Below, one piece after another: positions 5,167-16,920 of a DNA stretch of 63,022 nucleotides (the first letter of the stretch is position 1; each line of letters starts with the position of its first letter). Under the pieces are notes generated by a model. The model did not search any database, was not told the DNA's origin, and was given only the letters and a program-made list of their open reading frames with translations. Source of the DNA: Martelella mediterranea (GTDB taxonomy: Bacteria > Pseudomonadota > Alphaproteobacteria > Rhizobiales > Rhizobiaceae); the NCBI RefSeq assembly GCF_021021415.1, contig NZ_JAINWJ010000052.1, forward strand, positions 1-63,022, in the 5' to 3' direction. Made by a program: the position numbers and the translations under genes.

Positions 5167-5925
5167 TCACACGACTTCGGTCGTCGCAGCAAAGCTGATG
5201 CCGATCGAGCGGATGGACTTGATCGGCAGGTCGACGTTGGCGGAAGCGGCCTTCTGCTTCAGCCTGTGAACGATCGCATCAATGCTGCGCGTTTCGGGTT
5301 TGTCGTCATAGCCAAACTCGGACGCCAGTTTGCTCCGGCTGACCGGATCTCCCTTGGCCTCGACGAGAAGCGCCATAAGTTGCATTTCGCGTCCGGTCAG
5401 ATCGATTCCGATGTCGGCGGGAGACGTCAGTACATAGTTGAGACGGTCAAGCCGCCAGGTCTGATTGATGGATTGTGCGACATCAGCATCGTCCCCCGCC
5501 TTTCGCGGCTCCGGCAAGCGGCGGACCAGATTGCGGATCGCCAGCACAAGCTCAAGGCCATCGACAGGCTTGGTGAGGTAAAGATCGGCACCTTGCTGAT
5601 AACCCCGGACGCGATCATCGCGGCCTGTGCGCGCGGTGAGGAGGATGATGCCTCGGCCCTCTGCTTCGCCGGCAAGATCACTCACGAGTTCGAAGCCGCT
5701 GCAATCGGGGAGATTCACATCGATGATGGCCACTTCGAAGGTTGCGTTGCGCAGCGCCCTGTAAAATTCCAGTCCGCTGGATGCCTCGGTCACATCATAG
5801 CCGCTCAGCTTCAAGTATTCGGCAAGGCTCTGGCGCAAATCGTCGTCGTCTTCAACCAGTAGTATGCGGACTATTGCCTTGAGTTGCCCATCGGCATGCT
5901 TGATAGTTTGAACATCTTCCGTCAT
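5167..5925 (-). CDS. OmpR-family response regulator
   Basis: A 252-residue two-component response regulator. The receiver domain (residues 19 to 135) has the acidic pair in LLVEDDDD, phospho-acceptor Asp69 in IIDVNLP, Thr97 and Lys119 in LYLTKPVD. The C-terminal winged helix (LTGREMQLMALLVEAKGDPV through SIDAIVHRLKQK) is of the OmpR type. The ATG at 5925 fits the domain start; the frame is open further upstream but runs into the divergent kinase gene. It faces the histidine kinase across 67 bases and is its likely partner. Candidate target sites lie in front of the peptide genes at 8186-8219. Confidence 0.85.
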   Translation of the reverse strand: MTEDVQTIKHADGQLKAIVRILLVEDDDDLRQSLAEYLKLSGYDVTEASSGLEFYRALRNATFEVAIIDVNLPDCSGFELVSDLAGEAEGRGIILLTARTGRDDRVRGYQQGADLYLTKPVDGLELVLAIRNLVRRLPEPRKAGDDADVAQSINQTWRLDRLNYVLTSPADIGIDLTGREMQLMALLVEAKGDPVSRSKLASEFGYDDKPETRSIDAIVHRLKQKAASANVDLPIKSIRSIGISFAATTEVV

Positions 5926-5992
5926 TGCTGTCTGATCGGGTTTCTGAATGCGCTTCCTTCGTAAGCGACGATAATCAAGGAGAGCATTCGCG

Positions 5993-8062
5993 ATGTCCAG
6001 ACGCCTCCGCCGTTTCTGGATGCACTTTCCGTGCCTGGAGTGGTTGAGCACCGTTCCGATACTGACGATGGCGCTCTTTGTTGCAGCCGGCGGATTGTCT
6101 TGGGCAATGGACGCCGGTTCCGGCGACGTGCCCGATTTGCACGTCTCGACCTTCGTCGACGAAACTGCCGAGCTTACTCTTGCGGACATTCTGGCCGACG
6201 GTGAAGCCATCCGCTTCACGCCGTCTGCCCGTGACGGGATAGGCGCGCGTTACAGCCGCGACGTCGTCTGGCTGAAAATCCTGATGACACCCGAGCAGAC
6301 GATGCCCGCACTGATGGCGCTGTCGCCAAACTTCGTCGATATGATTGATGTTTATCTTGCCGACATGGCGCCGGATCTTGGCGTGAACGACTTCACCCAT
6401 ATCGCGCTCGGCGCGCATCGGCCGCTCTCGACCAACGGATATTCCGGGCTGGACGAAGTGGTTCCGCTGTCGTTCATAGCCGGACGCCCGAAGATCGCCT
6501 ACATAAGAGTCGCCTCGCCGAACGTCACCCTACTTCTCAATGTCAGACTGTACCGCCCTGAAGCCTATGTGGTGGAGGATGCCTTCGTGAGTATTGTGGG
6601 CGGCATCGTGCTGGGCAGCATGTGTCTTCTGCTGATCACCCAGTTGATCCTGTTCCAGTTCGATCGGGATCCTATTTATCCCTTGCTCGCCCTCAGTACG
6701 CTGAGCGCGGCCGCATATCACATAGGCAGTCTGGGATATTCGCGGCTGCTTCTGTTCCCCGCCGGCGGAACCGGCAACGACATTTTCCTGGCGTTCTTCT
6801 CTTCCTTCGGGCTGACGGCGGGAGCGCTGACAACTTGGCGCGTTTTCGATCTGCGTGGCCGGAGAAGCTGGATGCTCTGGACATGCGCCTTCGTTGCCGT
6901 GGCCGGCCTTGTTTGCACGATTGCCATTTTCTTTGGGCTCAATCTTCATTTCGCGCCGCTGCGAAACCTTCTGATCCAGATCTTCGTGACGATCACAGCC
7001 GGCTATAGTCTCTGGACGATCCGGCGCGGCGACTGGGCCTCCTATCTGCGCGCCGCCGCTTTCGTATCGCTGTGGATGGGGCTTACGCTTATGCTCCTTT
7101 ACTATTCCAATGTGCCCGGCCTGCCGGAATTGGCGTCGAAGGGCTATGCCATCGCTTGTCTGCTGGAAGCGATGCTGCTGACCCTGATGCTCAGTTGGCG
7201 TCTGAGAATGGCCAATCGGCTCAATGCCGCGCTGCAGGAAGAGGCGCTTCTGTCTGCCCGGAACGCTGAACAGCGCGCGATAGAAATCGCGCGCGAGCGC
7301 ACCAGAGAACTGGCGGAGGCCAAGCAGACCGCCGAGGCCGCGCTCGCGGCCGAGATGGAGCATAAGAAGAACCAGGTTCGCTTCATGGAGGTTATTTCCC
7401 ACCAGTATCGCACGCCACTCGCTTCGATCCGTTCAAGCGTCGATACGATCGAGCTCAGCCTGGCCGCGGACGACGAACCCAATCGCCAAAGGATAAAGCG
7501 GATCCGCCGCGGAATTGCCCGCCTCGTTGAAGTGCTGGAGATCAATCTTGGACGAAGCCGCATTCAGGGCTCCGCGCTTGAACCGCAGTTTTGCGCTATC
7601 CGCATTGGCCCGATGATCTCCGATATCGGCCGTCGCGCCAGAGAATTGATGCCGGGCGCGGCCTTCCAGATTGACATACCACCGGAAGAGCAGGACGTGG
7701 AGATCGATGTGGATAGCCACATGCTCAGCCTGGCATTGATAAATCTCTTGGAAAACGCCGTGAAATACTCGACGCCGACTGGAGAAAAGCCGGTGACGCT
7801 GTCAGTCGCGGTTGACGGACCGCTCGTGGCCTTCTCTGTCAAAGACGAAGGAATCGGAATTCCTGCGAGTGAGATCGAATCCGTTTCCAAAGAAAGGATT
7901 CGCGGTTCGAACACGGCCAAGATCGAAGGCACGGGCCTTGGTCTGTCGCTCGTAACGCGCATTGCCGCCGCCCATGGCGGCAGGCTCGAGATTGAAAGCA
8001 TCGAGAGCATGGGCACGAGAGTTACGATCTTGCTCCCGCGAGCGCAACGCGGGTCCATATAA
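5993..8062 (+). CDS. 7TM-DISM sensor histidine kinase
   Basis: A 689-residue hybrid of a 7TMR-DISM sensor and a histidine kinase. After a signal anchor (residues 15 to 40) comes a periplasmic DISM extracellular domain (about 45 to 185), seven membrane segments (about 190 to 410), a coiled coil rich in Glu and Ala, the HisKA H-box EVISHQYRTPLASI with phospho-acceptor His470, and an HATPase domain with N box (LINLLENAVKYS), G1 (VKDEGIGIP) and G2 (GTGLGLSLV). AAGGAGAG sits 8 bases before the ATG. Extracellular DISM domains are known to bind small carbohydrate-like or other extracellular ligands. Its position suggests it senses a cue for the peptide export locus downstream. Confidence 0.88.
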   Translation: MSRRLRRFWMHFPCLEWLSTVPILTMALFVAAGGLSWAMDAGSGDVPDLHVSTFVDETAELTLADILADGEAIRFTPSARDGIGARYSRDVVWLKILMTPEQTMPALMALSPNFVDMIDVYLADMAPDLGVNDFTHIALGAHRPLSTNGYSGLDEVVPLSFIAGRPKIAYIRVASPNVTLLLNVRLYRPEAYVVEDAFVSIVGGIVLGSMCLLLITQLILFQFDRDPIYPLLALSTLSAAAYHIGSLGYSRLLLFPAGGTGNDIFLAFFSSFGLTAGALTTWRVFDLRGRRSWMLWTCAFVAVAGLVCTIAIFFGLNLHFAPLRNLLIQIFVTITAGYSLWTIRRGDWASYLRAAAFVSLWMGLTLMLLYYSNVPGLPELASKGYAIACLLEAMLLTLMLSWRLRMANRLNAALQEEALLSARNAEQRAIEIARERTRELAEAKQTAEAALAAEMEHKKNQVRFMEVISHQYRTPLASIRSSVDTIELSLAADDEPNRQRIKRIRRGIARLVEVLEINLGRSRIQGSALEPQFCAIRIGPMISDIGRRARELMPGAAFQIDIPPEEQDVEIDVDSHMLSLALINLLENAVKYSTPTGEKPVTLSVAVDGPLVAFSVKDEGIGIPASEIESVSKERIRGSNTAKIEGTGLGLSLVTRIAAAHGGRLEIESIESMGTRVTILLPRAQRGSI

Positions 8063-8545
8063 CCGGCTCGTCCCTGCTCGTCGGGGAGACATTACCCGCT
8101 GCATGTGGATAAGCGCGGAATGACCTTCCAGACATAGACCGTCGGCCACGTCCACCCTGGAGAACGGCAGCGAGCATATCCGGATTGTTACATAATGTTA
8201 CTTTGAAACAAAATGTAACTAATTAAATTTACTTCATTATGCGTTTCTTATTTGATAGTTTCTCTGATTTATATTACATTCAACGCATTGGATATCGATC
8301 GCGAACTTTTCTGCTGACTGGCGACAAAAGCGTGGCAAGCGAAAGAACTGCATAACGCAAAGAACGCCACCGTATGAGTTAAGGATGCTGTCTCGGAAGC
8401 GCTGCGCTCCCGATCGTACAGAGGCGCGGATGCGGCTTTACCTTTTGTACAACAGGATGGTGAAGAAAGCCGCGATGACCGCCAAGAGCGATCTCGAAAA
8501 TGCCGACAAAGCGATTTGGAACAGATCAAGCTGAAGGAGAACGAA
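8063..8545 (+). other. AT-rich control region before the leader-peptide genes
   Basis: 483 bases with no convincing gene. Bases 8186 to 8290 are markedly richer in A and T than their surroundings and hold the tandem TGTTAC elements described separately, so the promoter of the first peptide gene is probably here. A 25-codon open frame (8457-8534) ends inside the ribosome binding site of the first peptide gene; it has only a weak start signal and is not called. Confidence 0.45.
8186..8219 (+). promoter_or_regulatory. Candidate response-regulator binding site, tandem TGTTAC
   Basis: TGTTAC occurs at 8186-8191 and again at 8196-8201, exactly ten bases (one helical turn) apart, and an inverted copy GTAAC lies at 8215-8219. 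Tandem half-sites at one-turn spacing are typical of OmpR-family dimers. The site is in the AT-rich stretch 330 to 360 bases before the first leader-peptide gene. That the divergent two-component pair binds here is inference. Confidence 0.4.
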
Positions 8546-8866
8546 ATGCCAAAAGAGAACATGAAATCTCCAATCGATGCCGACGACACCGAAATCACGG
8601 AGCTGGGCGCCGAGGAATTGCAGGGGGCGACCGGCGGCGTCCTGGCCGGCTTGATCGGCCCCGGCGATGATGTGACGCAGAGCATCGCCAGCGGCATCGA
8701 AAATGCCGTCGACGCAACCAAAAATGTGGTCGAAGCCGGCGCCTCGGATGTCGCTAAAGGCGCGGAATGGGTTGGCGATGCAGCGTCCAAGGCCGGATCG
8801 GCGCTTGAGACCGGCGTCGAGGATGTCGCCAAGGGTATATGGGACGCCTCTGCGGACTGGTGCTGA
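8546..8866 (+). CDS. Double-glycine leader peptide 1 (candidate bacteriocin precursor)
   Basis: A 106-residue precursor. AAGGAG at 8534-8539 fixes the ATG at 8546. Residues 15 to 31, TEITELGAEELQGATGG, form a double-glycine leader of the kind cut by C39 peptidases, giving a core of 75 residues starting VLAGLIG. The core is acidic, Ala/Gly/Asp-rich and helical, with repeating blocks such as GASDVAKGAEWVGDAASKAG and TGVEDVAKGIW, and ends in Trp-Cys, its only Cys. It lacks the hydrophobic helix of the other two peptides. The exporter with a matching C39 domain lies 3 kb downstream. Toxin, signal or adhesin roles are all possible; I recognise no named family. Confidence 0.7.
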   Translation: MPKENMKSPIDADDTEITELGAEELQGATGGVLAGLIGPGDDVTQSIASGIENAVDATKNVVEAGASDVAKGAEWVGDAASKAGSALETGVEDVAKGIWDASADWC

Positions 8867-9081
8867 TGAGATAAAGCTGACCATTGATAATTCCGTCACG
8901 CTTGCCGACATTGCCATTAAGCAATTGGATTTGTTAGTGATTCTGTGGAGGATATCGGGGATTCAATCGCCGACCATGAGAAGAAAACCCCAGTGGGCTT
9001 CTGATAGATCGCTGCTCGATGAACGACGGCAAAGGCGATCACGTGGCAAGCAATGCGACACTTTTCTATGAAGGAGTTATG

Positions 9082-9447
9082 ATGACAAACGAAGGTAAAA
9101 AACTGGCCGGTCCGGAGACCGACGATACCGAGCTCCAGGAGCTCGGCCCGGAGAACCTCCAAAGTGTCTCTGGCGGAGGTTTTTTCGGTGATGCCTTGAG
9201 TGATCTTGAACAGGGTGCCGAAGATGTCGGTCATGCGGCTGCGACGGCGGGCAAATGGGTTAAGAACGAAGCCGAGAAGCATCCTTACGTTGCTGCTGGG
9301 GTTGGGGCTGTTGGCATTGCGGCTGTCGGCGGTGTCGCATATTTGCTTGCAGACGCAGGCGAAGATGCGGCGGCCGACGTGGCGCTGAAGCCCAACGGAC
9401 TTTCCTTTAAAGACAACATGCGCGATATGTTCGACGAATCCGACTGA
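9082..9447 (+). CDS. Double-glycine leader peptide 2, glycine-zipper core
   Basis: A 121-residue precursor; AAGGAG at 9071-9076 favours the second of two adjacent ATGs. The leader TELQELGPENLQSVSGG ends at Gly32. The core begins GFFGDALSDLEQGAEDVG, continues through W59-V-K-N-E-A-E-K-H-P68, and then has a hydrophobic helix (69 to 90) with repeated small residues (GVGAVGIAAVGGVAYLL), followed by an acidic tail. Such glycine-zipper helices are common in membrane-active bacteriocins. From residue 31 to 83 it aligns without gaps to peptide 3. No Cys is present, so no disulfide or thioether is expected. Confidence 0.72.
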   Translation: MTNEGKKLAGPETDDTELQELGPENLQSVSGGGFFGDALSDLEQGAEDVGHAAATAGKWVKNEAEKHPYVAAGVGAVGIAAVGGVAYLLADAGEDAAADVALKPNGLSFKDNMRDMFDESD

Positions 9448-9773
9448 CCGCACAGCTGGTCGCGTTGGACCATCGTCGCCGAAGGGTAAGCCGACGAAGG
9501 TCGGAAATAGAGGGGTCCTAAGCTCGAAAAAATGGAACTTAGGAAACTTGCTCAGGGAAATGAAGTATGTCGCCGGCGATGAGGTGTCCGAACAGGCTTT
9601 CAACAAGCTGACCGCCGTCGGTCCAAGCCATATAGGCCGGTGATTGCGTCGAGCGGTTTGAGTATCGCCGCTCCACGTCGGATGATGATCGAGGCCGGAA
9701 ATGGGGTTGCGTGAAGAATGTCGGGTCGTGTGTTTCCTTTCTTAATAAATCCAATCTGACGGAAGGTTGTCTT
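9448..9773 (+). other. Spacer between leader-peptide genes 2 and 3
   Basis: 326 bases without a called gene. A 27-codon open frame beginning MKYVAGDEVSEQAF (9560-9643) has only a weak upstream signal and no leader motif. No terminator hairpin with a T tract was found, so read-through from gene 2 to gene 3 is possible. An immunity gene would fit here by analogy, but nothing in this stretch looks like one. Confidence 0.3.
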
Positions 9774-10151
9774 ATGAAAGCTTCTGCAAACGGCATTTGT
9801 CCAGCCAAGTCGGACGAAACGAACATGGATGAGCTCAATCAAGAGGAGCTGCAAGTCGTTGCTGGTGGCGGCGTCTTTGGCGATGTTTGGGACGGAATTA
9901 AAACAGGGGCGGACGATGTCGGTAGCGCCGCTTCTTCCGCATATAACTGGACCAAGAGCGAGGCTGAAGCGCATCCTGATATCGCCAAGGGGATCGCAAT
10001 TGCGGGGTCGATGGCAGTAGGCGTCGCAGCAGGTGGCGCTATCGCTGAAGCGATTAGTGCCGGTGCGGAAGCCGATGCCGAGAAGGCGGGATTTTTAAGG
10101 GCGGCCAAGCGGGTCGCGGATGTCTTGAGGGATGATCCCGACTATGACTAA
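9774..10151 (+). CDS. Double-glycine leader peptide 3, glycine-zipper core
   Basis: A 125-residue precursor; GGAAGG at 9761-9766 supports the ATG at 9774. The leader NMDELNQEELQVVAGG ends at Gly32. The core starts GVFGDVWDGIKTGADDVG, shares the W59/K61/E63-A-E65/H67-P68 block with peptide 2, then has a small-residue hydrophobic helix (70 to 94, AIAGSMAVGVAAGGAIAEAI) and an alternating acidic/basic tail ending DDPDYD. Its one Cys is in the leader. Peptides 2 and 3 are clear paralogues and may act together or be alternative versions. Confidence 0.72.
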   Translation: MKASANGICPAKSDETNMDELNQEELQVVAGGGVFGDVWDGIKTGADDVGSAASSAYNWTKSEAEAHPDIAKGIAIAGSMAVGVAAGGAIAEAISAGAEADAEKAGFLRAAKRVADVLRDDPDYD

Positions 10152-10586
10152 ATCGCCACTCAGGTCGCCGGCTTAGGCGACTTGGGCGAAAGCTGCTTAC
10201 GGCTGAAGAAGCTGCCGCTTTTCTGAAAGAGACGTTCCTCCAGTGAAAAGTGCCCAGGAGCGAATGGAGGGCCTGACTAGCGTAGACTTCCAGAATGGAA
10301 GTCGCCGGGAGCGACTTAATTGGCGATGGTGAAGACAGACGTTAAGGGCGACCACCCTGGTAGGTGACTAAAGATCTAACAAGCGGTACTGGGCTGCCAG
10401 CCAGCAAGACTCTAGAGATCGTTCTCGGCAGTTTTCTCGAACGCCAACATTCGCAGGAGCGGATCCCGCTCCGCGAGCGACGGATTAGTTCTGAACGCAG
10501 CGAAATGCAGGCTGGGCGGTTTTTCGGACGTGGAAATCGAGCACCGTAACATCGTGCTCCAAGAATATCGAAAGTGCGCCAAGTTC
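10152..10586 (+). other. Intergenic region before the exporter genes, with a small hairpin
   Basis: 435 bases with no supported gene. A short perfect stem, GTCGCC at 10164-10169 with GGCGAC at 10176-10181, lies just after peptide gene 3 but lacks a T tract. It could reduce read-through so that peptides are made in excess of the exporter. A stretch reading LLTAEEAAAFLKE at 10193-10231 recalls the start of excisionase-type helix-turn-helix proteins but stops after 17 codons. Confidence 0.3.
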
Positions 10587-11864
10587 ATGTCCAATTCCGA
10601 AGAGCCCCGCAAACAGGTCTATCGCGAATCCGCTCTCAAACATCTTCAGACCCCTGAAAGCACCGACAGCCTGATGCGTGTCGTCGGCCCGAGCGGCTGG
10701 GTTGTGGCGATCGCAATCGCGCTCGTCTTCTGCGGCGCGATTTACTGGAGCATTTTCGGAACGGTGACGACCTTTGTGCAAGGCAAGGGCATTCTCGGCC
10801 CGGCCTATGGGGAGACCCGCGATTTCGTTGCGACCCACTCGGGCATATTGCGCTCGCTGCCGGTTCAGCTAGGCGATACGGTTGAAAAAGGCGAGCTTCT
10901 GGCATCCATCGAGATCGTCTCGGTGGCCGAAGACAAGCGCGAGGCGGAGCGCACGCTGCGTTCGCTGAAGACCGAGCAGGATCTTCTGGAAACCTACTGG
11001 AACAACCTGCTGCCGCAACAGCTGGCCGACCTCAAGCAGAAGGAACAGGATCTGGAGCGCCAGATCGCATGGGACGAACAGCAGCTCGAGAGCCGCAAAA
11101 AAATTCTCGAAGGCTTCGAACAGGCCAGCAGCGATGGCGCGATAACGCCGCTGAGGCTCGAACAGGCCCGGGACGCATTCATTGAGGCATCCGCGAATCT
11201 GGATGGGAACAAATTCGACAAGGAGCAACTTGCGGCCAAGCGGCTTGAGCTTGAAAACCAGAAGACCACAGCGTTTCAGGCGATGAGCGACCGGTTGCTG
11301 AAGGCCCAGGAAAACCTGGCCGATCTCGAAGACACGCTTGATAGCGGCGGAAAGGTGCTCTCCGACATGGCCGGACAGGTCATCGCAGTCGACGCCAGCA
11401 TCGGCTCCTTTGTCCAGCCGGGATCGCCCATCGTGACGGTCCAGCCCGTCAACACCGATATCGAAGGGGTGTTTTTCGCCAATCCGCTGCACGGCAAGAA
11501 AATTCTGGCGGGCATGGAGGTCAATGTTTCGCCCTCGACCGTCGAGGCGTCACGTTTCGGTACCATCCGCGGAAAGGTCGTCTGGGTCAGCGAAGATCCG
11601 CAAAGCGACACCGCCGTCGCGCGTCAGCTTGGCAACGAAACGCTGGCCAAGGCACTTGCCGGCAATGAACCCCCGATCGCCTTCGGCGTTCAGCTTGAGA
11701 AGGACGCGGCCTCGCCCTCCGGCTTGAAATGGACCTCGGGGCACGGTCCGAATATGGAGGTCCGTACAGGTACCCTGGCCGACGCAGATGTCGCCGTGGA
11801 ACAGGTGCCGCCGATCGTTCTGGTGATCCCGGCTATCCGCCATGTCCTCGGTCTCGATCAATGA
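10587..11864 (+). CDS. HlyD-like periplasmic adaptor of an NHLM-type peptide exporter
   Basis: A 425-residue membrane-fusion protein. It begins with a cytoplasmic segment (ESALKHLQTPESTDSLMRVV) and one membrane helix (WVVAIAIALVFCGAIYWSIF), then a lipoyl half (GTVTTFVQGKGILGP), long coiled coils (about residues 115 to 265, KQKEQDLERQIAWDEQQLES), the second lipoyl half (GQVIAVDASIGSFVQPGSPI) and a beta-barrel. The 'SPE-x-LD-x-LM' style start before the helix is typical of NHLM-system secretion proteins. The ATG at 10587 is chosen for size; a GTG at 10530 is possible. It would bridge the inner-membrane ABC proteins to an outer-membrane channel, which is not encoded here. Confidence 0.82.
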   Translation: MSNSEEPRKQVYRESALKHLQTPESTDSLMRVVGPSGWVVAIAIALVFCGAIYWSIFGTVTTFVQGKGILGPAYGETRDFVATHSGILRSLPVQLGDTVEKGELLASIEIVSVAEDKREAERTLRSLKTEQDLLETYWNNLLPQQLADLKQKEQDLERQIAWDEQQLESRKKILEGFEQASSDGAITPLRLEQARDAFIEASANLDGNKFDKEQLAAKRLELENQKTTAFQAMSDRLLKAQENLADLEDTLDSGGKVLSDMAGQVIAVDASIGSFVQPGSPIVTVQPVNTDIEGVFFANPLHGKKILAGMEVNVSPSTVEASRFGTIRGKVVWVSEDPQSDTAVARQLGNETLAKALAGNEPPIAFGVQLEKDAASPSGLKWTSGHGPNMEVRTGTLADADVAVEQVPPIVLVIPAIRHVLGLDQ

Positions 11865-11880
11865 TCGGCGGAGCGCGGGC

Positions 11881-14067
11881 ATGACGAAGCTGTTTTCGGC
11901 GCTGAGACCGGGAAGGATCTTTCGCAGTGCAAAGACGCCGACCATCCTGCAGATGGAGGCGGTCGAATGCGGCGCTGCCTGTCTCGCCATGGTGCTAGCC
12001 CATCACGGACGATGGGTCGCACTTGAAAGGATGAGGCTCGAATGCGGTGTGTCGCGGAATGGCTCGAACGCCTGGAGCCTCATCGAGGCCGCCAGACGCT
12101 TCGGCTGTGAGGCCAAGGGGTTCAAGGTCGGACTGGAGCGACTGCGCGAGGTGACGCTGCCGGCCATCATCTTCTGGCGTTTCAATCACTTCGTCGTGCT
12201 GGAAAAGATCGACCGCAAGGGCGCCCAGATCAATGACCCGGCGCAGGGGCGCAGGCGCGTCGCCTGGTCGGAGATGGATAGGGATTTCACGGGCATCGTG
12301 GTGACCGTCGAGCCCGGGCCGGATTTTACGACCGGCGGCGAGAAACCATCGGTGCTGCGCGAGTTGAGGCAGCTTTCGCGCGGGACGGCAGGACCATTCG
12401 CCTTCATATTGCTGGTAACGCTCCTGATGGTCATTCCCGGCATCGTGATACCGGCGCTCAGCAAGATCTATGTCGATGGCTTCCTTGTGGGAGGACAGGA
12501 GGACTGGGTCAGGCCGCTGCTTGCGGCCTATGTCGTGGCCGGCGGGTTGAGCCTGCTTCTGAGCTGGCTGCAGAAGCACTACCTGATGCGGTTTTCCGCC
12601 AGGGTCAGCATCGACATGACGCGCAAGGTGCTGTGGCGTCTGCTGCATCTGCCGATGGACTTTTTCAGCCAGCGTTTTGCCGGGGATATTTCGAGCCGGC
12701 TTGGTTCCGCCGGCCGGGTGGCGTCGATGATCTCCGGTCCGCTGGCGTTCAGCATCGTCGGCATGATCTCGATCGTCGTCTATGGCGCTCTGATGTTTTC
12801 CTACAGCGTGCCGCTGGCCTCGCTCGTCGTCACCATGGCCTTCATCAACCTGATCATGGCGCGGGTCGTCTGGCTGCGGCTGGAGAATGCGCGCCATCTA
12901 CTGGCCAAGAACGGGGCGGAGCAGGCCTCGGCGATCATGAGCGGCCTGTCGGCGATCGAGACGGTCAAGGCCGCCGGGCTCGAGGATGATTTGTTTTCCC
13001 GCTGGGGCGGCCTTCAGGCCCAGCTCGTCTCGCTGTCGCAGACCATCGGGCGGCAAAACAACCTGCTCGGCCTGCTGCCGGGAACTCTTTCAGCGCTGGG
13101 GCATATCGCGATTCTTAGCCTCGGCGCCCTGTTCGTTCTGGACGGTCGGCTGACCGTTGGCGACCTTGTCGCGTTTCAGGTTCTGGTCGGCAGTTTCAAC
13201 GGGCCGATTTCGGGGCTCGTGGGACTGGGTTCGTCATTGCAGACGACGCAGGTTGATCTCAACCGTCTCGACGATGTCATCAATTACGGTTCCGCCGAGC
13301 CGGAAGTGGTGCCGCGGCCGCAGTCCGTCACCGCCGCAGCCAGACTTGTCGGCAAGGTCGGGCTTCGCAATGTCACCTTCGGATACAGCCGGCTTGAAAA
13401 GCCGTTGCTCGACGACTTTTCGCTGCTGTTGCAACCGGGCATGCGGATCGCGCTCGTCGGCGCCAGCGGCTCGGGAAAGTCGACCGTCGGCAAGCTGGTT
13501 GCCGGGCTTTACCGGCCATGGCAGGGCGAGATATTCTTCGATGACATCCCCCTGCAACAGATCGACCGTCTGACGCTGACCTCGTCTCTCGGCGTGGTCA
13601 GCCAGGATATCAATGTCTTCAGCGGGACATTGCGGGACAATATCACGCTCTGGGATACATCGATCCCCGAACCCGCGATCAGCCGCGCGGTCGCCGATGC
13701 CTGCCTCGATCAATTGCCGCTGGTGCGCGAGCAGGGGATCGATGCCGCCTTGTCGGAAGCAGGGCGCAACCTGAGCGGCGGCGAGCGCCAACGGCTCGAG
13801 ATTGCCCGCGCTCTGGCGCGCGATCCGTCGGTGCTGATCATGGACGAGGCGACGTCGGCGCTCGACCCCGTTACCGAGCAGACCGTCGACATGAACCTTA
13901 GACGGCGCGGCTGCGCCTGCCTGATCGTCGCCCAGCGGCTCTCGACCATCCGCGACAGCGACGAGATCATCGTTCTCGATCAGGGCCGGATCGTCCAGCG
14001 CGGCACGCATGATCGATTGATAGCTGAGCCGGACGGGCACTATGCCCGCCTTGTGGCCGCTCACTGA
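11881..14067 (+). CDS. C39-peptidase ABC exporter for double-glycine peptides (NHLM type)
   Basis: A 728-residue peptidase/permease/ATPase. The N-terminal C39 domain has Gln24, catalytic Cys30 in VECGAACLAMVLAHHG, His103 in FNHFVVLEK and Asp119 in NDPAQGR, so it should cut after the Gly-Gly of the three precursors. Six membrane helices follow (about 155 to 430), then an ATPase with Walker A GASGSGKST, signature LSGGERQRLEIARAL, and Walker B VLIMDEATSALD. GGCGGAG lies 7 bases before the ATG at 11881; an upstream ATG at 11842 would overlap the adaptor gene. It is tightly linked to both neighbours. Confidence 0.88.
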   Translation: MTKLFSALRPGRIFRSAKTPTILQMEAVECGAACLAMVLAHHGRWVALERMRLECGVSRNGSNAWSLIEAARRFGCEAKGFKVGLERLREVTLPAIIFWRFNHFVVLEKIDRKGAQINDPAQGRRRVAWSEMDRDFTGIVVTVEPGPDFTTGGEKPSVLRELRQLSRGTAGPFAFILLVTLLMVIPGIVIPALSKIYVDGFLVGGQEDWVRPLLAAYVVAGGLSLLLSWLQKHYLMRFSARVSIDMTRKVLWRLLHLPMDFFSQRFAGDISSRLGSAGRVASMISGPLAFSIVGMISIVVYGALMFSYSVPLASLVVTMAFINLIMARVVWLRLENARHLLAKNGAEQASAIMSGLSAIETVKAAGLEDDLFSRWGGLQAQLVSLSQTIGRQNNLLGLLPGTLSALGHIAILSLGALFVLDGRLTVGDLVAFQVLVGSFNGPISGLVGLGSSLQTTQVDLNRLDDVINYGSAEPEVVPRPQSVTAAARLVGKVGLRNVTFGYSRLEKPLLDDFSLLLQPGMRIALVGASGSGKSTVGKLVAGLYRPWQGEIFFDDIPLQQIDRLTLTSSLGVVSQDINVFSGTLRDNITLWDTSIPEPAISRAVADACLDQLPLVREQGIDAALSEAGRNLSGGERQRLEIARALARDPSVLIMDEATSALDPVTEQTVDMNLRRRGCACLIVAQRLSTIRDSDEIIVLDQGRIVQRGTHDRLIAEPDGHYARLVAAH

Positions 14068-14079
14068 GAAGCAGACCGG

Positions 14080-16920
14080 ATGACCGACAGCCCGCAAACA
14101 GACCTGCCACCGGCGCTTCGCAAGGCCCGCGACGCCGCCCGGATGCCACGTGCCATCCCGCTCAATGAGGTTGATGGCGTCTTCGTTGTCGAAGAGGGCG
14201 CTGCCGACGTATTCGCGGTCGACCCCGATACGCAGATCTACGGGCCGCTGCATCATCTCATGCGCCTTGCAGGCGGCGACGCATTCACCGGGCTGGCCGA
14301 TGTCGTCTGGGACGGCGGCGCGCCCGATATCATCGTTGTCCCGGCACCCGGTTGCCGCCTCGCCGCCACCGAAGAAGGGCCGTCCGGCGCGGGCATCGAC
14401 GCCTGGATCGGCCGCCTGCTGGCAGCGTGCCCATCCGCGCTGCCGCCGCGCGGCATCGCGCCGTTGCGCGCCGGGCAGCATGTCTCGATACCGGAAGGAG
14501 CGGCGGTCTGCGCCGCCGGCGCATTGCTCTGGCTTGAGACGGATGGCGTTCTCAAGTCAGGCGACGGGCGCGAGCTCGGGCCGGGTCTGGCGCCGTTGAC
14601 GGCGGATTTCTGGGTCCAGGCGCAGGCCCCGGTCACGGCGCGGGTCCATGATAGCGCAGCCCTTGCCGAGGCGGGATGGCTGCAACGCGGGCGCGCGGAA
14701 GCGTTGCGCGTCGCGCTCGCAGGCATCGCAACGACGCTGGCCACAAATCGCCTCGACGGCCGGGACGACGTCTCGCGCCGCGACCAGGCGGCGGAGCTGC
14801 GCCTGAAGGCCGCCTCCGGCGAGGTGGCGGCGCTTCTCGATCACCGGGCGAAACAGCCAGCGGGCACGCTGGAGCCCGATGCGCTGGCGCGCTGCGCGGC
14901 CCGCGTGGCGGCGGCGGATGGTATCCGGCTGAAGGCCCAACGGTCTCTTGTTAAAGGGGAGCGCGGCGAGGCGATCGCGGCGATCGCCCGGGCCAACCAT
15001 GTGCGCTCCAGGCGCGCGCGGCTGCCAGAGGAATGGTGGCGCGGCGATCACGGCGCGTTCCTGGCATTCACCGAAAGCGGCGAACCCGCCTGCCTCATCC
15101 CCGGCCGCTTCGGTTATCGCCATATCGATCCCGAGGGCCGCGAGCGCAAGGTCGGCAGGCAGTTTGCCGAAACGCTCGCGCCGGAAGCCTATATCTTCTA
15201 TCGGCCGCTGCCGGACGGCAAGGTGACGTCGCGCATGCTGCTCGGCTTCGTGTTCCGCAACAATGTCCGTGCCTTCGCCACCATCCTGATCGCGTCGGCC
15301 TGCGCGGCGCTGCTGGCGCTGCTCACGCCGCTGGTGTCCGGCCATATCTTCGATACGATCATCCCGAAGGCCGAATACGACCAGTTGCGCCAGGTCACCA
15401 TCGTTCTGGTGGCGGCGGCGTTTGCCACGCTCGGCTTCGGTACGGCGCGGGCGTTGACGCAATTGCGGATGCGCGGCCGGATCGACGCGGTGGTGCAGAG
15501 CGCGGTCTGGGACCGGCTGCTGCGCCTGCCGGCCTCCTTCTTCCAGCAATACGAGGTCGGTGATCTGGCGAACCGGGCATCCGGGATCAACGCCCTCAGC
15601 CGGGCGCTCAGCGGCTCGACCCTTTCGGTGCTGTTCAGCGGCTTGTTCTCCACCGTGAGCCTGGCTATGATGGTCTATTATCAGCCCATGCTAGCCGGCA
15701 TTGCCGTGGGCTTCGTGGTGTTCGTCATTCTGATCAGTTCGGCTTTTGCCTATCTGCAACTGCTATACCAGCGCGAACAATACGAACTGCGCGGAAAACT
15801 GTCCGCCAGAACCTTCCAGTTCGTGTCCGGCATTGCCACGCTGAAGGTGAACGGTGCGGAACGGCTTGCGTTTGCCGACTGGACCGAGCGCTTTGCCCGC
15901 GACATGCATTTCCGGCTGCGCTCCAACGTGCTGTCCTACAGCGAGGGGCTGTTGACGAGCGGGGTCCTCATCGTCTTCCATATCGTCGCGCTGGCGGTGT
16001 TCGCCTTCTATGTCGAGGACGTATCGACCGGTACCTTCATCGCGTTCAACACGGCCTTCGGGCAGTTTTACGGCGGGCTCTCCGGCTTTGCCGGCGCGTT
16101 CGTCACGCTGATGTCGCTGAAGCCGCTCTATGAACGCACCGAGCCCATTCTGGCGGGCGAGCCGGAGGTTTCCGGCGCTAAAATCGACCCCGGCGAGTTG
16201 AGCGGCCGGATCGTCATCGCCCATGCCAGCTTCGCCTATGAGGCGGCCGGCCGGCCGATCCTCGACGATGTGAGCATGGATATCCGGCCCGGCGAGTTCG
16301 TGGCGGTCGTGGGGCCGTCGGGCAGCGGCAAGTCGACGCTGCTGCGCTTGCTGCTGGGCTTCGCGACGCCCCAGAAGGGCGGCGTTGCCTATGACGGCCA
16401 TGATCTCGAAAAGCTCGATCCCGCCGCGCTGCGCCGGCAGATTGGCGTGGTCCTTCAGGATGGCAAGCTCCTGACCGGCAGCATTCGCGACAACATCACC
16501 GCCAACGGCATCTACACCGAGGCCGATATCTGGCAGGCCGTCAGGGATTCCGGCCTCGAGCGGGATATCAGGGCGATGCCGATGGGCCTGCAGACGCCGG
16601 TCGGCGAAGGGGCGGCAACCTTTTCGGGCGGGCAGAAGCAAAGGCTGCTGATCGCGCGCGCCCTGGTGCGCAAGCCGCGCATCGTTCTGTTCGACGAGGC
16701 GACCAGCGCGCTCGACAATGTCACCCAGGCCGAGGTCAGCGCCGCGCTGGAACGCATGAAGGCGACGCGCATCATCATAGCGCATCGGCTTTCAACAATC
16801 CGCCATGCCGACCGCATTTATGTTCTCGAAAACGGCCGGATCGTCGAGAGCGGGAGCTATGACGAACTGCTCGCGCAGGATGGCGCTTTCACCGCGCTGG
16901 CCAACCGTCAGTTGGTTTGA
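14080..16920 (+). CDS. Second NHLM-type ABC transporter permease/ATPase
   Basis: A 946-residue protein that starts 12 bases after the C39 transporter. The first 370 residues form a long cytoplasmic extension without C39 catalytic residues, as in the partner ATPase of NHLM systems. Then come six membrane segments (about 390 to 690) and an ATPase with Walker A GPSGSGKSTLLRLLLG, signature FSGGQKQRLLIARAL and Walker B IVLFDEATSALD. Pairing of a C39 transporter with this longer partner distinguishes NHLM exporters from ordinary class II bacteriocin exporters, which have one ABC protein. Its exact role in the pair is not known to me. Confidence 0.87.
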   Translation: MTDSPQTDLPPALRKARDAARMPRAIPLNEVDGVFVVEEGAADVFAVDPDTQIYGPLHHLMRLAGGDAFTGLADVVWDGGAPDIIVVPAPGCRLAATEEGPSGAGIDAWIGRLLAACPSALPPRGIAPLRAGQHVSIPEGAAVCAAGALLWLETDGVLKSGDGRELGPGLAPLTADFWVQAQAPVTARVHDSAALAEAGWLQRGRAEALRVALAGIATTLATNRLDGRDDVSRRDQAAELRLKAASGEVAALLDHRAKQPAGTLEPDALARCAARVAAADGIRLKAQRSLVKGERGEAIAAIARANHVRSRRARLPEEWWRGDHGAFLAFTESGEPACLIPGRFGYRHIDPEGRERKVGRQFAETLAPEAYIFYRPLPDGKVTSRMLLGFVFRNNVRAFATILIASACAALLALLTPLVSGHIFDTIIPKAEYDQLRQVTIVLVAAAFATLGFGTARALTQLRMRGRIDAVVQSAVWDRLLRLPASFFQQYEVGDLANRASGINALSRALSGSTLSVLFSGLFSTVSLAMMVYYQPMLAGIAVGFVVFVILISSAFAYLQLLYQREQYELRGKLSARTFQFVSGIATLKVNGAERLAFADWTERFARDMHFRLRSNVLSYSEGLLTSGVLIVFHIVALAVFAFYVEDVSTGTFIAFNTAFGQFYGGLSGFAGAFVTLMSLKPLYERTEPILAGEPEVSGAKIDPGELSGRIVIAHASFAYEAAGRPILDDVSMDIRPGEFVAVVGPSGSGKSTLLRLLLGFATPQKGGVAYDGHDLEKLDPAALRRQIGVVLQDGKLLTGSIRDNITANGIYTEADIWQAVRDSGLERDIRAMPMGLQTPVGEGAATFSGGQKQRLLIARALVRKPRIVLFDEATSALDNVTQAEVSAALERMKATRIIIAHRLSTIRHADRIYVLENGRIVESGSYDELLAQDGAFTALANRQLV

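Follow-up and report, generated by a model that had tools for sequence, protein, structure and literature searches.

We analysed a stretch of 63,022 nucleotides from Martelella mediterranea (contig NZ_JAINWJ010000052.1, hereafter the window), which belongs to a 5.4-Mb genome. Between positions 5,167 and 16,920 it carries a two-component regulatory system, three genes for small proteins with double-glycine (Gly-Gly) leaders, which we call precursors P1 to P3, and the genes of an NHLM/NHLP-type peptide exporter with two ATP-binding cassette (ABC) proteins. A reading made from the sequence alone had placed the regulator, kinase, precursor and exporter genes here, and each was found in its place:

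5167..5925, minus strand: OmpR/PhoB-type response regulator, 252 amino acids (aa) from ATG 5925 (Pfam Response_reg 9e-24, Trans_reg_C 6e-10)
5993..8062, plus strand: 7TMR-DISM sensor histidine kinase, 689 aa (Pfam 7TMR-DISMED2, 7TMR-DISM_7TM, HisKA and HATPase_c)
8187..8219, plus strand: tandem GTTAC box, candidate response-regulator binding site (pattern matches and alignment)
8251..8280, plus strand: predicted promoter with a TTTGAW element (consensus match only)
8546..8866, plus strand: precursor P1, 31-aa leader and 75-aa acidic core ending in DWC
9082..9447, plus strand: precursor P2, 32-aa leader and 89-aa core with a 22-residue stretch without charge or proline; ATG 9079 is also a possible start
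9774..10151, plus strand: precursor P3, 32-aa leader and 93-aa core with one glycine zipper
10530..11864, plus strand: HlyD-like periplasmic adaptor (TIGR03794), listed with a GTG start; the in-frame ATG 10587 is a possible start
11842..14067, plus strand: C39 peptidase-permease-ATPase, ABC1 (TIGR03796)
14080..16920, plus strand: second permease-ATPase, ABC2 (TIGR03797), with a long N-terminal extension and no peptidase domain found

The regulator and kinase genes are divergent, with 67 bases between their likely starts. For the regulator, ATG 5925 is likelier than the GTG 6219 of the listed open reading frame (ORF), judging by the divergent arrangement in a related genome (G001) and by the sequence.

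The locus was compared with three samples: 13 Martelella genomes including that of the window, 297 genomes of the family and 397 of the order, the last holding 24 TIGR03797-type matches outside the window. The Martelella genomes fall into few close groups, so counts of co-occurrence among them are not independent.

The exporter and its precursor proteins

All three exporter proteins scored above the cut-offs of their family models: the HlyD-like protein with 258 bits against 156 (TIGR03794), ABC1 with 943 against 853 (TIGR03796) and ABC2 with 820 against 709 (TIGR03797). On these models the trio is a bona fide NHLM/NHLP exporter, as the sequence-only reading had proposed. ABC1 aligns with PCAT1 over almost its whole length and keeps the catalytic residues Cys43, His116 and Asp132, which bears out the earlier claim of an intact C39 peptidase; Walker A/B and signature sequences are also present. 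A Pfam scan of ABC2 gave no C39 match. The long extension of ABC2 had been singled out as distinctive, and it proved to be ordinary, since comparable open frames (844-1137 codons, stop to stop) occur in 21 of the 24 other matches in the order. The structure model of its N-terminal 390 residues was too poor for library comparison (predicted local distance difference test, pLDDT, 41), and we know of no established role for a peptidase-less second ABC protein. The cluster contains no outer-membrane channel; TolC-type matches lie on other contigs of the genome, the strongest on C62, C46 and C10.

The three precursors have leaders of 31, 32 and 32 residues and cores of 75, 89 and 93 residues, which are acidic and rich in glycine and alanine, and a Shine-Dalgarno-like sequence precedes each gene. 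None of them matched a Pfam or NCBIfam family over cut-off. A pattern search of the six Martelella exporter loci found 18 leader-bearing genes in total (3 in the window, 3 in G007, 7 in G012, 2 in G001, 2 in G011 and 1 in G003, which is M. limonii); four more pattern matches, which had no family leader, were set aside. The seven genes of G012 lie within 2.7 kb (L070, 10634-13370). We aligned 16 of the precursors, the G007 copies of P2 and P3 being omitted as near-copies. The leader is 31-32 residues long in 15 of the 16 and 39 residues long in M. limonii; positions L21, L26, Q27, G31 and G32 are invariant and D14 and E20 nearly so. The models for NHLP (TIGR03793) and Nif11 (TIGR03798) leaders found nothing at E 0.1 in the window's three precursors and nothing at E 1 in all 16, in keeping with the earlier claim that the precursors belong to no recognised family.

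Mean pairwise column identity came to 0.47 over the leader and 0.27 over the core, as is usual when a leader is conserved for a single exporter while the cores can diversify freely. The cores are 41-98 residues long, whole precursors 72-132, and cysteine is absent from 13 of the 16 cores and occurs once in the other 3. These single residues are at the C-terminus (DWC or NWC) of P1, at 8855-8863 of the window, and of its G007 and G012 relatives. We also compared seven pairs of precursor genes for the ratio of non-synonymous to synonymous substitution rates (dN/dS). Over the whole gene this was 0.14-0.42 in the five diverged pairs and reached 0.56 in the core of P1 between the window and G007; the remaining two pairs, P2 and P3 between the same genomes, were nearly identical. 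The precursors are therefore more than chance reading frames, because the diverged pairs show this constraint and because relatives of P1 to P3 adjoin the exporter in four other genomes.

These relatives were found with a profile built from the window's three precursors only (A1), so that the same precursor family does stand beside NHLM exporters elsewhere, a check that the sequence-only reading had called for. Full-length orthologues of ABC2, 73-100% identical, occur in 6 of the 13 Martelella genomes, including M. limonii (74% identical to that of the window), whose leader-bearing gene the A1 profile missed. A leader-only profile (A5) gave 18 strong matches (E < 1e-11), all in the six exporter genomes, and nothing up to E 1 in the seven Martelella genomes without the exporter; as A5 was built from these same genes, the absence elsewhere is its independent part. 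The chance of such a perfect 6/7 split would be 1 in 1716 if the genomes were independent, which they are not. The M. limonii gene is the weakest case, found by ORF reading and pattern search about 2.5 kb from the exporter and behind another gene. Beside this exporter (L002, 139-6156) there are also, by eye, a very large glycine-rich, autotransporter-like ORF and a 172-aa ORF resembling a secreted IalB-type protein.

Five weak leader matches in Martelella (E 0.03-0.63) were left out of the precursor count. One of them, in G011, is a plausible orphan: a Gly-Gly-leader gene (L020, G011:C1:476465-476668) whose leader (LDQKDLESASGA) is related and which lies a long way from the exporter. The A1 profile likewise gave one further weak match in G011, far from the exporter. 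Among the order's 396 other genomes, profile A2 found no convincing member of the precursor family; two borderline matches (E 1.1e-4 and 9.9e-4) were set aside since the open frames that hold them run to 296 and 503 codons. A scan of named genomes with ABC2 returned five loci, of which four besides M. limonii were partial matches at 27-35% identity and were not used. In plasmid records, the matches listed (25 of at least 5000) were 31-47% identical, and 11 of them are annotated NHLP exporters.

Predicted regulation, possible recombination and chromosomal surroundings

Kinase homologues (E < 1e-60) were found in 5 of the 13 Martelella genomes, and these are the same five that carry A1-type precursors. 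The kinase lies inside the locus in the window, G001 and G011. In G012 an intact kinase lies about 12 kb away and broken kinase remnants remain in the locus at 13768-14234, and in G007 the kinase is about 1.2 Mb from the locus. In all five genomes the first precursor is preceded by the box [GA]TTAC-N5-GT[TA]AC-N13-GTAAC, and a TTTGAW element begins 64-65 bases after the start of the box. This form of the box, the looser of two patterns, had one exact match in each of the five genomes and none in the other eight, against 2 matches in the 13 genomes for its reversed control; a stricter pattern had a single exact match in the 5.4 Mb of the window's genome. Since these sites served to derive the pattern, the independent parts of this result are the pattern's uniqueness and its absence elsewhere. 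The link to two-component control, which had rested on adjacency, now extends to kinase, box and precursors occurring in the same genomes.

The kinases fall into three types, {window}, {G001, G011} and {G007, G012}, which are 78% and 87% identical within types and 55-61% between them. The response regulators split into the same three types and so, by eye, do the boxes. Box type thus appears to follow regulator type and not exporter kinship. The window and G007 illustrate this, as they share the cassette but differ in the types of regulator and box, so that promoter and regulator differ together.

Across the stretch from P1 through the ABC2 gene, the window and G007 are 95% identical in DNA, with blastn homology starting only at 8536, just before P1. 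Identity varies along the cassette: P2 and P3 are 99% identical (block 8975-10625), the exporter genes 92-96% and P1 78%, a mosaic which suggests that precursor blocks have been exchanged. Flanks of 2.2-4 kb were compared among the six loci and had no gene in common at high similarity, the best translated matches being 29-55% identical over 37-103 residues. The cassette is apparently mobile, as judged from these different chromosomal surroundings.

Other NHLM loci and known systems

We examined 21 loci outside Martelella, comprising all six genomes over the TIGR03797 cut-off in the family and 15 of the 24 matches in the order. By pattern and by eye, seven had Nif11-type leaders, two NHLP-type leaders and four short leaders (L105, L106, L112 and L113), and eight gave no call; L108 and L111, which show possible short leaders, are counted among these eight. 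The four short-leader loci come from other Rhizobiales and, like those of Martelella, combine an NHLM exporter with short Gly-Gly-leader peptides within the same 20 kb. Leader types were checked with profiles on one peptide each from seven of the nine long-leader and three of the four short-leader loci. No leader model exceeded its cut-off in the peptides of L105, L106 and L113. The positive controls L075, L078, L110 and L115 (Nif11) and L079 (NHLP) exceeded theirs, and two further controls stayed below (L074 with 31.3 of 32.3 and L076 with 43.7 of 50.9).

In a C39-ABC protein tree of 27 rows, the six from Martelella grouped together (100/100), with L104 and L105 as their sister group (100/100). 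L105 has short-leader peptides, one of them rich in glycine and alanine, and none were found at L104; unlike in Martelella, neither locus has a regulator or kinase homologue within 20 kb. On the tree the short-leader label requires 2 changes, compared with 6.6 after shuffling, a result which near-copies help. Short leaders thus mark this exporter group and probably at least one other place on the tree. At L113 (G318, 13561-14118), an ORF directly 3' of the second ABC gene resembles a cyclic-nucleotide-binding domain by eye and recalls the CAP_ED proteins of cyanobacterial clusters in the accessible part of PMC3140520.

The NHLM exporter is linked to NHLP precursors and was defined through them (Haft et al. 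2010, PMC2887384, accessible sections). The Martelella system consists of the same three exporter proteins but differs by its short leaders of neither NHLP nor Nif11 type, by having no recognised modification enzyme and by its two-component system and box. In the available portion of Wang et al. 2011 (PMC3140520), 290 cyanobacterial precursors are counted, of which 150 fit no named family; these include 15 of the 61 in group IV and 16 of the 37 in group V, both groups being said to encode a peptidase-less ABC protein. Unassigned precursors beside this kind of exporter are therefore already on record. Groups IV and V resemble the Martelella locus in having a C39-ABC protein, a peptidase-less ABC protein, HlyD and some precursors without a named family, a likeness in gene content; they differ in that they belong to another phylum, group IV is defined by LanM and no regulator is described in that portion of the paper. 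NHLP-type exporters without named substrates are also reported from Legionella in the accessible text of PMC6959600. Given these cyanobacterial precursors and the short-leader peptides near 4 of the 21 other NHLM loci, the earlier description of a new class of peptides goes too far. A literature search of titles and abstract openings, with subscription papers mostly outside its reach, found no Martelella bacteriocin and no two-component-controlled NHLM locus.

Proposed function and alternatives

We lean somewhat towards reading the locus as a horizontally moving, bacteriocin-like export cassette under two-component control, which would serve class-II-like and probably unmodified proteins. The kinase and response regulator would sense some cue, after which the regulator may bind the tandem GTTAC box and activate the promoter before the precursor genes. 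The C39 domain of ABC1 would recognise the common 31/32-residue leader and cut after Gly-Gly, and ABC1, ABC2 and the HlyD-like protein, together with a TolC-type channel encoded elsewhere, would export the cores. Their target may be the envelopes of competing relatives, where they would most likely work as a membrane-active set of several proteins. This reading is favoured by the finding that the kinase, the A1-type precursors and the box occur together in five genomes, two of which have no intact kinase in the locus. Weak matches to Bacteriocin_IIc (PF10439) in 3 of the 16 precursors (best E 0.0064; P3 E 0.0087) and to the cerein-7B model (TIGR03949) in one (E 3.1e-4) also suggest that the type of function is a known one. 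Microcins of class II and bacteriocins of class IIb/IIc resemble the Martelella system in this weak profile likeness, in the short double-glycine leader and in the cognate C39 ABC protein; they use a single peptidase-ABC exporter.

Several results weigh against a bacteriocin cassette. Its weakest point is that no immunity gene was recognised in the gaps between genes, where short genes, or genes further away, could be missed. This search took in ORFs of at least 25 codons and their hydropathy in eight gaps (three in the window, one each in G007, G001 and G011 and two in G012); the highest 19-residue hydropathy mean was 1.29, in an ORF antisense to genes, and outside the near-identical pair of window and G007 the gaps shared only short DNA matches (43-45 bp with G012 around the start of the HlyD gene, and 87 bp shared by G001 and G011). 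With neither an outer-membrane channel nor a recognised immunity gene, the cluster cannot be called self-contained, as it had been. Glycine zippers occur in only 8 of the 16 cores, exceed shuffled sequences at p < 0.05 in only 3 and are found uninterrupted in P3 alone of the window's precursors, for which the structure model (pLDDT 44) was too poor for fold comparison. All 16 cores are acidic, unlike two-peptide bacteriocins of Gram-positive bacteria, most of which are cationic. In M. limonii the exporter and one leader-bearing gene occur without the kinase and without the box. When 2 mismatches were allowed, the window's genome gave 5 matches to the box pattern and 11 to its reversed control, so that only exact sites carry weight, and the few close genome groups further reduce what the co-occurrence counts can say.

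The cores might instead stay at the cell surface, with Gly/Ala-rich proteins aggregating on the producer as an adhesin or matrix, or they might be contact-dependent toxins of the Cdz type; we regard this as rather unlikely. Cdz is, to our knowledge, the nearest studied alphaproteobacterial small-protein weapon, and it uses one ABC protein, against two here. The zippers in half of the cores and the giant glycine-rich ORF beside the M. limonii exporter would fit such a role, and P1 and P2, which have no uninterrupted zipper, would not. According to the accessible part of PMC5380434, Cdz proteins are type I-exported glycine-zipper proteins of Caulobacter with Gly-Gly leaders, and Cdz-like candidates are 60-151 residues long; all 16 Martelella precursors fall in this range and have leaders ending in G[GAS]. 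In both systems a locus can encode more than one small protein with a secretion leader, and some of these proteins have zippers, a likeness in general features, but Cdz has an immunity gene, cdzI, and stationary-phase induction (PMC5380434, same part), and in the gaps searched here no clearly hydrophobic, CdzI-like small ORF was found.

It is quite improbable that the cores are signals, with the 7TM-type kinase sensing an exported core and the operon inducing itself as in peptide quorum sensing. Kinase and precursors do co-occur even when unlinked, and regulator types co-vary with the box, but 41-98 residues is long for pheromones, several kinds of core are present together, and we do not know of the DISMED2 sensor domain as a peptide sensor. 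It is very unlikely that, as happens in many NHLP/Nif11 systems, the cores are modified by an enzyme whose gene lies elsewhere, even though precursors of that kind served to define the exporter family (PMC2887384, accessible sections). The scarcity of cysteine excludes lanthionines and Cys-thiazoles in most cores. As the sequence-only reading had stated, no known modification enzyme was recognised nearby, neither among 10 window neighbours scanned (2 without a Pfam match) nor among 10 proteins near three relatives (2 without a match), and the window's genome has no YcaO; LanM and radical SAM enzymes were not searched genome-wide. Both adjectives in its phrase "unmodified secreted peptides" are inferences.

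Beyond the bacteriocin-like cassette that we favour, a broader and decidedly tentative idea is that in an alphaproteobacterial lineage the dual-ABC exporter of modified peptides was turned into a dedicated exporter of unmodified, recombining, membrane-active arsenals. Each arsenal would be coupled to an interchangeable unit of regulator and box, with sensor, promoter and weapon set exchanged independently between strains (as at the junction at 8536) and moving between chromosomal sites.

The system is real, conserved and apparently mobile. It varies a known kind of exporter and is not categorically new; its interest lies in its substrates and its regulator-box unit. The cassette weakens the working rule that this exporter trio is a sign of modified-peptide pathways, a rule by which genome mining could assign such loci wrongly or overlook them. 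Simple gene-encoded substrates could be used here to study the peptidase-less second ABC protein. Finally, the leader motif, the regulator and the predicted box allow induction, often a hurdle when bacteriocin clusters are silent, to be tested directly in Martelella strains.

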